DNA from: Mesotoga sp.
GTDB taxonomy: Bacteria; Thermotogota; Thermotogae; Petrotogales; Kosmotogaceae
Assembly: GCA_011620045.1 (NCBI GenBank)
Contig: WOZY01000285.1
Location: 1-11,612 of the forward strand
Reading direction: 5' to 3'
Length of the DNA: 11,612 nucleotides
Both the position numbers and the translations under genes were made by a program. How positions within the stretch are numbered: position 1 is the stretch's first letter; each line of letters opens with the position of its first letter. Under the pieces are notes generated by a model, which was given only the letters and a program-made list of their open reading frames with translations, did no database searches and was not told the DNA's origin. Shown here in pieces: positions 2,035 through 9,239 of this stretch.

Positions 2035-3367
2035 TTGGCAGCGGGTTTTCATGAGGACTTTCTATGGGGTGTTGCAACGGCAGCTTATCAGATAGAAGGA
2101 GCCGATCTTGAAGAAGGTAAAGGTCCTTCAATTTGGTCGGATTGTTCTCACAAGCCCGGAAGGATAGATTTCGGGGAAAGCGGCGATGTTGCTTGTGACC
2201 ATTATCAAAGATTCACAGAAGATATTGATCTCATGACGGCACTTGAACTGAATTCTTATCGATTCTCCATATTCTGGCCGAGGGTACTTCCAAAGGAGCG
2301 TGGCCCGACAAATCAAAAAGGCATTGATTTCCACGATAGACTAGTCGATGAGCTTCTGGAAAGAGAAATACAACCTCTTGTCACTCTGTATCACGGGGGT
2401 TTTCCTTTAGATTTGCAGGCGAGATTCGGTCGATGGGAGTGCAGAGATGTCAGTCATTACTTTGACGATTACTCAAGTTTGATGTTTTACAGATTGGGTG
2501 ACAGAGTAAAATGCTGGATTACTTTGAATGAACCTTGCTGCTCTTCTCACGTGAGCTATCTCTGGGGTGAACACGCTCCTGGAAAGAGAGACCTGAAACT
2601 GTCACTTTCCGTCTCTAACAATTTTCTGCTTTCCCTTGGGGAAGCAGTAAGAAGTTTCAGAGAGAGCGTAAGAGATGGCCTGATCGGTCTTGAGAATGTT
2701 TCCGCTTTTGTTGAGCCTGTGACTGATTCCAAAGGAGATCTCCGTGCTGCAAAAATCTATGATCAGTTCATTAATGGTTGGTTCCTTGAAACTCCGCTAA
2801 CTGGTGAATATCGCTCTGAACTCTTTGTGATCTTTGAAAATGAGGGGCTGGCGCCAATTGTCCAAAGCGAAGATATGGAAATCATATCGACGCCCTTCGA
2901 TTTCTGGGGTGTGAATTATTACACAAGAAACCTCGTTAGAAGAGAAGAATCAAGTATACTTGGTACCGAAGTCGTTCAAGGAGAACTACCGAAGAGCGAG
3001 ATGAGCTGGGAGATCTACCCGGAGGGCCTTGCAGCTTTTCTCTTCAGGGCCTACAAAGAGTTTGGCAAGAAACCGATATACGTTACAAAGAACGGTATTG
3101 CGGGCAAAGATACGTTGTTGGATGCCTCAGTTGGTGATTATTATAGAATTGAGCATCTGAGACAGCACTTTTCCGCTGCTCTTAATGCAATAAAAGGAGG
3201 GGTGAATTTAAGGAGGTTATTCTGTCTGGACTTTGATGGATAATTTTGAATGGGCGCTTGGTTATTCGAAGAGATTTGGCCTGGTATTTGTGGATTATAA
3301 TAATGATGTGAAACGCATCCCAAAGACAAGTTTTGAATACTACTGGGATCTCATTAAAACGCGGTGA
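2035..3367 (+). pseudogene. Beta-glucosidase, glycoside hydrolase family 1 (frameshifted and catalytically degraded)
   Basis: GH1 enzymes are cytoplasmic retaining beta-glycosidases. The frame starts at TTG 2035 after a strong SD (GAGGAGGG, 6 nt spacing). It begins with the family hallmark FLWGVATAAYQIEG, and the acid/base motif TLNEP is intact (Glu166). It reads as GH1 for about 393 codons, then jumps frame: after AGG at 3211-3213 the family's C-terminus continues in the +1 frame from 3215 ([18 protein letters not shown]...) to TGA at 3365-3367. A one-base insertion around 3211-3216 explains this, and the in-frame product stops at 3243. The catalytic nucleophile motif (I/V)TENG reads VTKNG, a Glu-to-Lys change at residue 352 (codon AAG, 3088-3090). 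The YHWDLP sugar-binding motif reads YHGGFP (2392-2403). Total length matches the family (about 445 residues). Several independent lesions point to real decay rather than a single sequencing error. Confidence 0.88.
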
Positions 3368-3488: not shown

Positions 3489-3505
3489 GAGAGGGGGTTT
3501 GCCAA

Positions 3506-4366
3506 ATGATTGGAGTCATAGTAGATTCAGGATGTGATCTTCCCGAATCGATGAAAGAAAGTGATAACGTAAGAGTCATTCCACTGAAGATAATTCTTGA
3601 TGGTAAGGAATATAGAGACAATATTGATATCACTACTTCAGATCTTCTTCAATACATGGAAGACAAGTTTCCAAAGACCTCGCTTCCAAGACAGTCGGAA
3701 ATCGAGGAGGCTTTTGACAGCCTTTACGAGAAGGGATTCAGGGAGTTCCTTTATATTGGAATTTCTAGCGGTCTAAGCGGGACTCTGGGGCAAGTGAAGA
3801 CTTTTGTCAGAGACTTCTCCGAAAAGCACTCCGATGTGAATGTCGAGGTAGTAGACTCAAAAAACATTTCGATTGGTTCAGGACTGCTTGCTATGAAGGG
3901 AATAGATCTGGCCCGGCGAGGGTTGGCCTTTGAAGAGGTAGTGAGCGAGATCCACGATTCTGTGAGTAAGTCCAAGGTCTTCTTCTGCATACCTGTCCTA
4001 AAGTTTCTTAAGGCTGGAGGACGAATTGGAAAGGTTACCGCAACAATCGGGGATTTTCTCGATCTGAAGCCTGTAATAACCGTTGGCGAAGATGGGGTCT
4101 ATCACAGCGTTTCAAAAGAAAGAGGCATGAAGAGAGCCGTTAAAGCTTCGGTAAATAAGCTATTGGAATTCATTGAGGGCAAAAAACTGCTGAACATTGC
4201 CGCTTATACATCGGACAAAAGTGAGAAGACCAGAGAGTTTTTCAAGATGGCTGTAGACGAGATTGAGGCAGCAGGAATAAGTGAAATAATCACGGGGCAG
4301 ATCTCTCAATCACTTGTTTGTCACACAGGCCCCGGCTTAATTGGTGTTTCTGCAATCTTTGAGTAA
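3506..4366 (+). CDS. DegV-family fatty-acid-binding protein (FakB type)
   Basis: The protein is 286 residues, a normal full length for DegV/FakB proteins. These cytoplasmic proteins bind a fatty acid and, in organisms with FakA, present it for phosphorylation to acyl-phosphate. Landmarks are the N-terminal VIVDSGCDLP (about 4-13), TSLPRQS (58-64) at the place of the family's TSxPs, and ISSGLSGT (86-93) of the lipid-carboxylate site. VVDSKN (115-120), LKAGGRIGK (168-176) and HTGPG (273-277) near the C-terminus are also family hallmarks. The ATG at 3506 follows a G-rich SD (GAGGGGG, 8 nt spacing). No FakA gene is present in the window, so a role in fatty-acid incorporation is inferred from the family only. 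A G/C hairpin follows the stop immediately. The SD is perfectly complementary over 9 nt to the predicted RNA encoded convergently next door. Confidence 0.92.
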   Translation: MIGVIVDSGCDLPESMKESDNVRVIPLKIILDGKEYRDNIDITTSDLLQYMEDKFPKTSLPRQSEIEEAFDSLYEKGFREFLYIGISSGLSGTLGQVKTFVRDFSEKHSDVNVEVVDSKNISIGSGLLAMKGIDLARRGLAFEEVVSEIHDSVSKSKVFFCIPVLKFLKAGGRIGKVTATIGDFLDLKPVITVGEDGVYHSVSKERGMKRAVKASVNKLLEFIEGKKLLNIAAYTSDKSEKTREFFKMAVDEIEAAGISEIITGQISQSLVCHTGPGLIGVSAIFE

Positions 4367-4391
4367 AAAAAAGCCGCCAGTATGGCGGCTT
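4365..4391 (-). terminator. Strong minus-strand terminator, probably also the end of the degV-family transcript
   Basis: GCCGCC (4373-4378), loop AGTAT, GGCGGC (4384-4389) form a 6-bp all-G/C stem, extended by A-T pairs. On the minus strand eight Ts follow (4372 down to 4365), a textbook intrinsic terminator. On the plus strand the tail is only TTAAAT, so termination of the degV-family gene would be weaker. It closes the candidate small RNA that starts near 4539. Confidence 0.75.
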
Positions 4392-4539
4392 AAATCGGGA
4401 TATTCCAGGGGGTTTCAACATGCCTGTCCTTCATCCATACTTGGGGGGTGATGGGGGACTTGCATATCGGTACTCGTGTGTTTTGCCTTTTTTAATGACC
4501 GTTCGAGCTTTTGGGGTTTCAAGGGTTACTTATCTATTT
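4365..4539 (-). ncRNA. Candidate C-rich small RNA, about 175 nt, convergent with the degV-family gene
   Basis: A near-consensus promoter (4546-4574) and a strong terminator (4365-4391), both on the minus strand, frame a segment with no credible protein gene. The predicted RNA is poor in G and rich in C and A, so apart from the terminator it should be mostly single-stranded. It contains two copies of TTGAAACCCC (complements of 4513-4522 and 4409-4418), a C5 run (4453-4457) and a C6 run (4443-4448). Such C-rich unpaired stretches are typical of trans-acting bacterial small RNAs that pair with G-rich SD sites. AAACCCCCT in this RNA is the exact complement of AGGGGGTTT at 3492-3500, in the SD region of the neighbouring degV-family gene. 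I recognise no known RNA family (not SRP RNA, tmRNA or RNase P). Transcription and function are inferred. Confidence 0.6.
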
Positions 4540-4545
4540 GATTTA

Positions 4546-4574
4546 ATTCTACCCAAAGAAGTCGGGTTTGTCAA
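4546..4574 (-). promoter_or_regulatory. Consensus sigma-A promoter for the candidate small RNA
   Basis: On the minus strand TTGACA (4574-4569) is a perfect -35 hexamer. A 17-bp spacer separates it from TAGAAT (4551-4546), a 5/6 match to TATAAT. The predicted start of transcription is near A4539. No minus-strand protein gene follows. The next signal is the terminator at 4365-4391. Confidence 0.72.
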
Positions 4575-4582
4575 TATAGTTG

Positions 4583-4635
4583 AGCAGGATTGTCGGCTTT
4601 GATTTGTAAACATTGTGTTAACTTGAAGTCCTGCT
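4583..4635. repeat. Inverted repeat AGCAGGA ... TCCTGCT upstream of the MFS gene
   Basis: AGCAGGA at 4583-4589 and TCCTGCT at 4629-4635 are perfect 7-bp inverted arms separated by 39 bp. The interior holds a near-palindrome around GTAAACATTGTGTTAAC (one mismatch per arm). It could be a structured 5' leader of the MFS/pepT transcript or an operator. I found no convincing plus-strand promoter for the MFS gene in 4575-4740, and the rest of that stretch shows nothing recognisable. Confidence 0.3.
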
Positions 4636-7586: not shown

Positions 7587-9239
7587 ATGTCAACAGGGTC
7601 CAGATTCATGAGGGGTAAGATTGGAAGAGACAATCCCCTCTTCTCAATGACTAGGGTAACAATAGAAACTGCCTTCTACGGGAATAATGTTGTGCCGGTA
7701 TTTTCACCAAGTGAAGCATACAAGCTGGCTAAAAGCTCTCCGGGCACTATAGTTACAGATCTTCCAGTTTACAGACCTGAGAAAATTGGACTTGAATCCA
7801 ATTCAAAAGTGCTTCTCTTCAACGATGGTGCTGTGACTGGAAGATGTGCATCCGCGAGAAGAATCATTGGAGAGCCCGGAGTAAACGAAGCAGAATATGG
7901 AGCTAAGATTAGAGAAGCGATCTACAATACCAGAAGACAGAAGATGTATCATGCGCAGGCTTATATAGGGCTCGACAGAGATTTCATGGTCAAAGCCCAT
8001 CTACTTGTTCCCGAAACTCATGAGAACTTAATCTACAACTGGTTGTTGAACTTTCAGCCTATCAACGAGTTCTACAGTGAAATGTATGAGTCTTCGCAAA
8101 GATGCGAAAATGAAGGAGACATCTTTGTTTTTTCCAATCCAGATTGGCAACATCCCGACCATCCACTGGGTCTTTCATTCTTCGATCCGGAGCACAACTG
8201 TGCGGCTATTCTTGGGATGAGGTACTTTGGTGAATTCAAGAAAGGAACCCTCACCTTAGCGTGGGGATGCGCCAACAGACAAGGTTTTGCTGCTTGTCAC
8301 GGTGGGCAGAAGAGGTACAATCTGAAGGATAGAAAATTCGTTGTGGGATTCTTTGGCCTCTCCGGGTCTGGAAAATCCACATTGACGCATGCCAAACATG
8401 GTGAAAAGTATGACGTAACGGTATTACATGACGATGCGTTCGTGATATCTTCTTCCGATGGGTCCTCCGTGGCGCTCGAACCTTCCTACTTTGACAAGAC
8501 TTCGGATTATCCTTTGAGGAGCGAAGACAACAAATTCCTTCTGTCTGTTCAGAATGTTGGAGCTACCCAGGACGATGAGGGAAGAGTTGTTATTGTGACT
8601 GAAGATATTCGCAATGGTAATGGACGGGCAATCAAATCAAAGCTTTGGTCTCCAAATAGAGTAGACAAGTTTGCTGAGCCTGTGGACGCTATTATCTGGT
8701 TGATGAAGGATCCATCAATTCCTCCAGTAATCAAGGTTAAAGATCCTGTTCTAGCATCAGCCATGGGTGCTACTCTAGCAACAAAGAGAACCTCTGCCGA
8801 GCGGTTGGCACCGGGAGTTGATCCCGATGCACTTGTTATTGAGCCTTATGCCAATCCCTTCAGAACATATCCACTATCTGACGATTTTAACCGTTATCTT
8901 GAATTATTCGCCAGAAGAAATATTGAATGTTACATATTCAATACGGGACACTTCGGTCAAACTAAGGTTCCAAAAGAACTTACTCTCCAAATTCTGGAGT
9001 CAATTGTCGAGAATCGCGCTGAATTCGCTTCCTGGGAACCCTTCCAGGAGCTTGAAGTAATGGACATCGATGGTTTTCAGCCTGATCTGTCTGACGAAGA
9101 TTACAGAAAGCTCGTTAGGGACAGACTGGTTGACAGATTGAACTTCCTTCGCTCTAGAGAAGTGGAGAGAGGGGGTTTCGACAGAGTACCTCAAGAAGCA
9201 GCGGAGTCAATTTCATCATTAATAGACAGGCTTAGGTAG
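7587..9239 (+). CDS. pckA: Phosphoenolpyruvate carboxykinase (ATP)
   Basis: This family interconverts oxaloacetate plus ATP with PEP, CO2 and ADP in the cytoplasm, linking C4 acids to glycolysis and gluconeogenesis. The protein is 550 residues (E. coli PckA is 540). Landmarks in order: TGR at 84-86, holding the likely substrate-binding Arg; YFGEFKKG at 213-220, with the metal-binding Lys; His238 in the ACHGG stretch; the P-loop GLSGSGKST at 257-265; the kinase-2 aspartates in LHDDAF (282-283); and NTGHFG near 452. The usual RSPKDKF after TGR is replaced by CASARRI, and the P-loop has Ser instead of Thr at two places. It is therefore a divergent branch of the family, but all core residues I can check are present. 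The ATG at 7587 has a good SD (GGAGG, 6 nt). Structured repeats precede it and an intrinsic terminator follows. Confidence 0.9.
   Translation: MSTGSRFMRGKIGRDNPLFSMTRVTIETAFYGNNVVPVFSPSEAYKLAKSSPGTIVTDLPVYRPEKIGLESNSKVLLFNDGAVTGRCASARRIIGEPGVNEAEYGAKIREAIYNTRRQKMYHAQAYIGLDRDFMVKAHLLVPETHENLIYNWLLNFQPINEFYSEMYESSQRCENEGDIFVFSNPDWQHPDHPLGLSFFDPEHNCAAILGMRYFGEFKKGTLTLAWGCANRQGFAACHGGQKRYNLKDRKFVVGFFGLSGSGKSTLTHAKHGEKYDVTVLHDDAFVISSSDGSSVALEPSYFDKTSDYPLRSEDNKFLLSVQNVGATQDDEGRVVIVTEDIRNGNGRAIKSKLWSPNRVDKFAEPVDAIIWLMKDPSIPPVIKVKDPVLASAMGATLATKRTSAERLAPGVDPDALVIEPYANPFRTYPLSDDFNRYLELFARRNIECYIFNTGHFGQTKVPKELTLQILESIVENRAEFASWEPFQELEVMDIDGFQPDLSDEDYRKLVRDRLVDRLNFLRSREVERGGFDRVPQEAAESISSLIDRLR

Follow-up and report, generated by a model that had tools for sequence, protein, structure and literature searches.

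The window, meaning the whole stretch of 11,612 nucleotides analysed here, is a contig of an incomplete Mesotoga genome (G000; 1.75 Mb in 317 contigs), which was compared with nine further genomes of the same genus. A small RNA gene was identified on its minus strand, converging on a DegV-family gene, with the following features.

4575..4615, minus strand: upstream element, TTTACA then CCGAYAA (motifs at 4590-4610 in the window), recognized by column conservation
4569..4574, minus strand: -35 box TTGACA, identical in 12/12 copies of alignment A1
4546..4551, minus strand: -10 box, TAGAAT in 11/12 copies and TACAAT in G004
4364..4539, minus strand: predicted small RNA gene of about 175 nt, its start placed from the promoter and its end from the T-run
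4513..4527, minus strand: site S1, AACCCUUGAAACCCC, single-stranded in the centroid fold and with a weak three-pair contact in the minimum free energy (MFE) fold
4416..4469, minus strand: central hairpin predicted by folding, apical loop CCCCCC at 4443-4448
4408..4418, minus strand: site S2, UUGAAACCCCC, with its UUG in the 3' arm of the hairpin
4394..4400, minus strand: tail segment UCCCGAU, complementary (G-U pairs included) to GUUGGGA of the C69 peptidase leader
4371..4391, minus strand: hairpin of the intrinsic terminator; the U8 after it reaches about 4364, and the terminator adjoins the stop codon of the convergent DegV gene (4366)
3492..3500, plus strand: candidate target, the ribosome-binding site AGGGGGUUU of the DegV-family gene, with 9 bp to S2 in the window and 10 bp in four relatives

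The promoter TTGACA-17-TAGAAT that had been proposed from the sequence-only reading was present at 4574-4546 as described. With its 17 nt spacing and 11/12 consensus bases, it was the best promoter-like site in the window. The hairpin and the eight Ts of the proposed terminator were also present, but the stem, which had been called all-G/C, consists of nine pairs with six G-C among them. Four C-runs of at least four were found, as claimed, at 4516-4513, 4457-4453, 4448-4443 and 4412-4408, two of them inside the repeat TTGAAACCCC, which occurs in the window only at 4522-4513 and 4418-4409, 104 nt apart. The RNA, which had been described as C-rich, was instead A-rich (A 34%, C 27%, G 19%). The exact repeat was not kept among the 11 complete copies of the gene: the first site was TTGAAACCCC in 2 copies, TTGCAACCCC in 3 and other variants in 6, while the second site was TTGAAACCCCC in 9/11.

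Two other frames of the window were also noted. The frame at 2035-3243 (plus strand) resembles a GH1 beta-glucosidase, with a match that stays below the family cut-off and stops at position 388 of a 427-position profile, and it may be truncated or frameshifted. The frame at 7587-9239 (plus strand) is like a phosphoenolpyruvate carboxykinase of a divergent form; it matched seven NCBIfam models, none of them at a score that reached the cut-off.

Conservation of the RNA gene within the genus

A 251-base query matched all nine other genomes of the genus, and the promoter was present in 10/10. Complete copies numbered 11, in 9/10 genomes, while the G007 contig breaks off directly downstream of the -10 box. 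G003 and G008 each contained two gene copies and the other seven genomes a single one. Seven of the 11 complete copies were located at DegV/MFS loci, two at beta-lactamase-like/Tex loci and two beside NUDIX, nitrilase and Crp-type regulator genes; the truncated copy of G007 was near a TrmB-type gene. The neighbourhoods were thus at least three and unrelated to each other. The second copies of G003 and G008 (L039 and L040) lie one gene from the Crp/Fnr-type regulator, which may be a controller.

Across the seven DegV/MFS loci, the invariant columns amounted to 20% in the spacer, 60% in the upstream element, 83% in the promoter, 70% in the 5' part of the RNA, 62% in the middle, 56% in the hairpin, 88% in the 3' C-run block (region 4392-4421) and 60% in the terminator. 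Over the same loci, distant pairs were 43% identical in the spacer and 76-92% identical in each of the remaining regions. A kept promoter, C-runs and terminator together with a diverging spacer had been named beforehand as the pattern that would support the gene, and this pattern was found (20% in the spacer vs 56-88% elsewhere). The five Cs of S2 were invariant in 11/11 RNA copies, and the tail UCCCGAU was identical in 10/11, G004 differing at the last base. The unit carries a promoter and a terminator that do not depend on the flanking genes, which by sequence is the mark of a trans-encoded small RNA. We consider it very likely that this small RNA gene is real and conserved.

In the window, TTTACA and CCGACAA were located 16-36 nt upstream of the -35 box, and CCGA occurs again inside the promoter spacer. 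TTTAC and CCGA were identical in 12/12 copies, while 4/12 copies deviated from the strict pattern TTTACAN{2,7}ANCCGAYAA. This pattern had 9 matches in the 10 genomes, 8 of which were the promoter of the RNA, and its reversed control had 0; a wider regulon was not found with it in the ten genomes of the genus. The upstream element is likely a dedicated site of a putative regulator.

Family and homologue searches

The search of 4227 Rfam families gave no match at the gathering score, in line with the earlier remark that no named family matches, and a known Rfam family was rejected on this ground. Relaxing the limit to E up to 10 gave 15 matches, each of which overlapped the terminator and looks like chance. 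Covariance model R1 scored 117-206 bits for the 11 copies in 9/10 genomes of the genus, high scores that were expected because R1 was built from those copies. Outside the genus, blastn gave matches at E up to 1 in 44/51 genomes, which were short and scattered with a best value of 0.0029. R1 gave matches at E 0.0025-0.08 in 10/28 non-genus genomes of the order, and with stricter filters a single match (E 4.6e-4, in G073) among the 93 class genomes from outside the genus. These non-genus matches were treated as chance, and no convincing homologue was found outside the genus among 103 class genomes. In the open-access literature, no title or abstract reporting a small RNA of Mesotoga was found.

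Predicted structure

The RNA of the window was folded with an MFE of -43 kcal/mol and a z-score of -3.2, and the two G003 copies had z-scores of -2.3 and -2.1, which makes the earlier description of the RNA as likely unstructured doubtful for its central part; the G001 RNA folded no better than shuffles (z +0.26). For four helices, the terminator included, 96% of the alignment cells could pair vs 26-46% with the partners slid, with one compensatory change, in a test that was run on an alignment fitted to the named structure. Since the covariation of this structure was reached by 93/500 shuffles and the alignment was fitted to it, covariation does not prove the structure. With RNAalifold, alignment A2 yielded a consensus without any compensatory pair. 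In G008, the hairpin loop is missing from one copy, and in the second copy the C-run of the loop is interrupted. A central hairpin presenting the longest C-run is plausible as a model.

Complementarity to start regions and candidate targets

In 800 kb of G001, 775 start regions were predicted. GGGG was present in 113/775 and GGAGG in 303/775, so the C-runs would reach a subset of genes. Complementary 8-mers in these regions numbered 88 for the window RNA (shuffle mean 48, reached by 3/100 shuffles) and 81 for G001's own RNA (shuffle mean 56, reached by 7/100), in a test that partly reflects the runs themselves because the shuffles also break up the C-runs. The positions with at least three 8-mer matches were all in C-run sites for the window RNA and in 4/6 cases for the G001 RNA. 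The mean duplex energy of the C-rich segments against the 775 start regions was within about 1.5 SD of same-composition shuffles, and by this measure broad anti-Shine-Dalgarno enrichment was not seen. Sequence complementarity thus suggests but does not establish a general anti-Shine-Dalgarno role, and Shine-Dalgarno masking, for which specific candidate targets were found, is plausible.

The pattern GGGGTTKCAA had 117 matches in the 10 genomes, 14 of them inside the RNA gene, vs 49 for the reversed-pattern control. Among 70 loci inspected, seven had the motif 9-10 nt before a frame of more than 100 residues: four were C69 peptidase genes (G001, G005, G007, G009) and three were other genes found once each (L054, L075, L086). 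Four further C69 sites were read (two in G003, one each in G007 and G008). Family C69 peptidase (Pfam PF03577) was the recurrent ribosome-binding-site match to the pattern.

The C69 leaders share a conserved block, GUUGGGAGGGGUUUCA, which is complementary to the conserved 3' segments of the RNA. Among the close C69 members with a readable start, 12/13 had GAGGGGTTTCA[A/T] before TTG and 10/13 had the full GTTGGGAGGGGTTTCA[A/T]; a fourteenth member, G008 b, was omitted since its start was unreadable. Ten more distant C69 paralogues were without the block, and the best C69 match in G002 had only 50% identity. The block is predicted to pair with GUUGAAACCCC of the S2 region, or a shorter part of it, and then with UCCCGAU or the G004 variant, with an 8-nt bulge between. 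For full-block leaders the duplex energy was -22.2 to -25.0 kcal/mol in 8/8 genomes (one leader each). Among the 775 start regions of G001, the C69 leader ranked 4th with the window form of the RNA (three regions scoring above it) and 5th with the G001 form (four above it). Shuffled RNAs matched the C69 duplex in 15/5000 cases for the window form and 10/5000 for the G001 form, figures that are optimistic since the C69 site was picked after viewing the matches and no correction was made for this choice.

When the whole RNA and the C69 leader were co-folded without constraint, S1 and not S2 was placed on the Shine-Dalgarno block, and the tail was placed on an upstream GGGGUAU, so that either S1 or S2 may be the acting site. 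The C69 peptidase is the leading candidate target, and we put the chance that it is a true target somewhat short of even. Upstream of the Shine-Dalgarno block, the C69 leaders L168, L165, L081 and L087 carry two more conserved hairpins, AGGTC...GACCT and GGGGT...TCCCC; the CCCC of the leader hairpin could compete for GGGG, which suggests that the leader is regulated on its own.

The adjoining DegV gene is the second candidate target, through a predicted pairing. Its site was CAGGGGGTTT in G002, G004, G005 and G009, AGGGGGTTT in the window and G006, and CAGGGGGT in G003 and G008, where the RNA gene is located elsewhere. In G001 the DegV site was GGAGG, the pairing fell to -14.4, and S2 was without UUG. 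Both the C69 and the DegV cases are confounded by the conservation of Shine-Dalgarno sequences as such.

The pattern CAGGGGGTTT had 44 matches against 26 for its control, and 30 loci were inspected. A formate/nitrite transporter gene with CAGGGGGTTT in G001 was found in 4/10 genomes, the window's not among them, and CAGGGGG was kept in four transporter gene copies (three genomes) with readable starts. In G001, identical start regions lie 76,303 bases apart (L185, L189 and neighbours; G001:C1, about 1.8309-1.8455 Mb and 1.9072-1.9218 Mb), which suggests a duplication of about 15 kb that includes the formate/nitrite transporter. In G008, five GGGGTTTCAA matches were located within 6 kb on one strand (G008:C1:1334070-1339836), perhaps a CRISPR array whose repeats contain GTTTCAA.

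Discussion

We propose, with a probability of about 0.7, that the gene encodes a stand-alone, trans-acting regulatory RNA that masks Shine-Dalgarno sites and is so far restricted to one genus, Mesotoga. The RNA would be transcribed from the sigma-70-type promoter under control of an upstream regulator and would end at the intrinsic terminator. It would probably use Hfq, which is encoded in 10/10 genomes of the genus, and would present its C-rich sites as S1 in the 5' single-stranded stretch, the hairpin loop, and S2 in the 3' block. These sites may pair with G-rich Shine-Dalgarno regions and thereby keep ribosomes from initiating translation on a limited set of mRNAs. Since the same unit is located at DegV/MFS, beta-lactamase/Tex and NUDIX/nitrilase loci, it is independent of its neighbours.

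The alternatives differ in what they leave unexplained. That a promoter and a terminator came together between genes by chance agrees with the counts in the window, where promoter-like sites numbered 21 vs a shuffle mean of 19.6 and terminator-like sites 10 vs 9.8, and with those in 800 kb of G001, where promoter sites of at least 11/12 numbered 26 vs 21 in one shuffle of it. Promoter and terminator alone prove little because the window counts match the shuffles, but the unit is conserved in all ten genomes with a diverged spacer, and its conservation across the genus and its loci excludes chance, so that accident has a negligible probability. A dual-function RNA or a short mRNA for a small peptide is very improbable, too. 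Short frames do exist, such as the 16-residue frame MQVPHHPPSMDEGQAC in the window, but frames of at least 8 residues from its start column were present in only 6/11 copies and differed in length and sequence, and the one other sense start column common to at least 6 copies (9/11) gave peptides whose length ranged from 9 to 35 residues. Indels whose length is not a multiple of three are common among the copies and break the frames, and no start codon with a consistent frame was common to the 11 copies on either strand. A peptide-coding transcript was rejected on this basis, and the earlier claim that no credible frame is present held: the conserved coding frame that had been named as a refutation of the small RNA was absent from the 11 copies.

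An RNA that acts in cis on the gene converging with it (DegV, Tex or NUDIX), as its antisense or its terminator element, would suit the three loci where the RNA points into a convergent gene, with its end from a 2-3 nt overlap to about 52 nt off the stop codon. However, the whole unit and the upstream element were kept beside unrelated neighbours, and a shared terminator would need neither a promoter nor 175 conserved nt, which makes a cis element improbable. A conserved RNA that mainly serves as a ligand or sponge for Hfq or another RNA-binding protein, and does not pair with mRNA, is less improbable, while still unlikely. The presence of Hfq in the whole genus speaks for it, as do the A-rich middle and the U-tail, which presumably could be Hfq contacts. 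Against it, the most conserved transcribed block is the C-run block, and most start-region complements fall in the C-run sites. A CsrA sponge of the CsrB or RsmZ kind is unlikely in particular and was rejected: CsrA was found in 0/10 genomes of the genus, by a search that finds it in the controls Thermotoga maritima, E. coli and B. subtilis.

Within the preferred reading, Shine-Dalgarno masking by a trans-acting RNA, a more specific version can be drawn. In it, a genus-specific, Hfq-linked C-run RNA would make a split contact, with UUGAAACCCC and UCCCGAU, an 8-nt bulge apart, pairing with an uninterrupted 17-nt block in the leader of a C69 peptidase that is probably secreted. Such an RNA would give the mesophilic Thermotogota a first small RNA that pairs with mRNA and has a defined target, and would have arisen or spread to new loci after the lineage became mesophilic. 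We regard this version as doubtful, and the split contact was weighted down because the unconstrained co-fold puts S1 on the Shine-Dalgarno block.

The LhrC family of Listeria binds Hfq and is controlled by LisRK, and RoxS is likewise a C-rich-seed small RNA of Firmicutes. The present RNA resembles LhrC in having several C-rich sites in a loop and in single-stranded parts (here S1, the loop and S2, the loop being absent or broken in the G008 copies), in a host that encodes Hfq and, in part, in gene number, since two genomes (G003 and G008) have two copies. As described in PMC4132741, the UCCC motifs of LhrC are taken to bind Shine-Dalgarno sequences, and RNAIII, RsaE, SprD and FsrA have a C-rich motif complementary to such sequences. 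In contrast to LhrC, which is 111-114 nt long with five copies in L. monocytogenes, the present RNA is about 175 nt long, has a single copy in seven of the nine genomes that carry it complete, has C-runs of 4-6 and has targets that are predicted only; by Rfam it is not a member, and LhrC was absent from the 15 sub-threshold matches. RsaE, FsrA and RoxS differ in that no Rfam relation was found and that the host here belongs to the phylum Thermotogota. By analogy, the RNA would be a new family of a known kind, most like LhrC and the other C-rich-motif RNAs of Firmicutes in its working and not a member of them.

In Thermotoga maritima, of the same phylum, 12-13 putative ncRNAs were reported, described as a paucity (PMC3636130), and a survey table gives one Rfam small RNA for Thermotogae (PMC9029176); R1 found nothing convincing outside the genus in the class genomes. 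Small RNAs are thus little catalogued in Thermotogota, and the family adds, from a genus that encodes Hfq, a case for which a promoter, a terminator, a candidate regulator site and candidate targets can be named. If the proposed reading is true, the masking of ribosome-binding sites by C-runs, described in Firmicutes, would also be used in Thermotogota.
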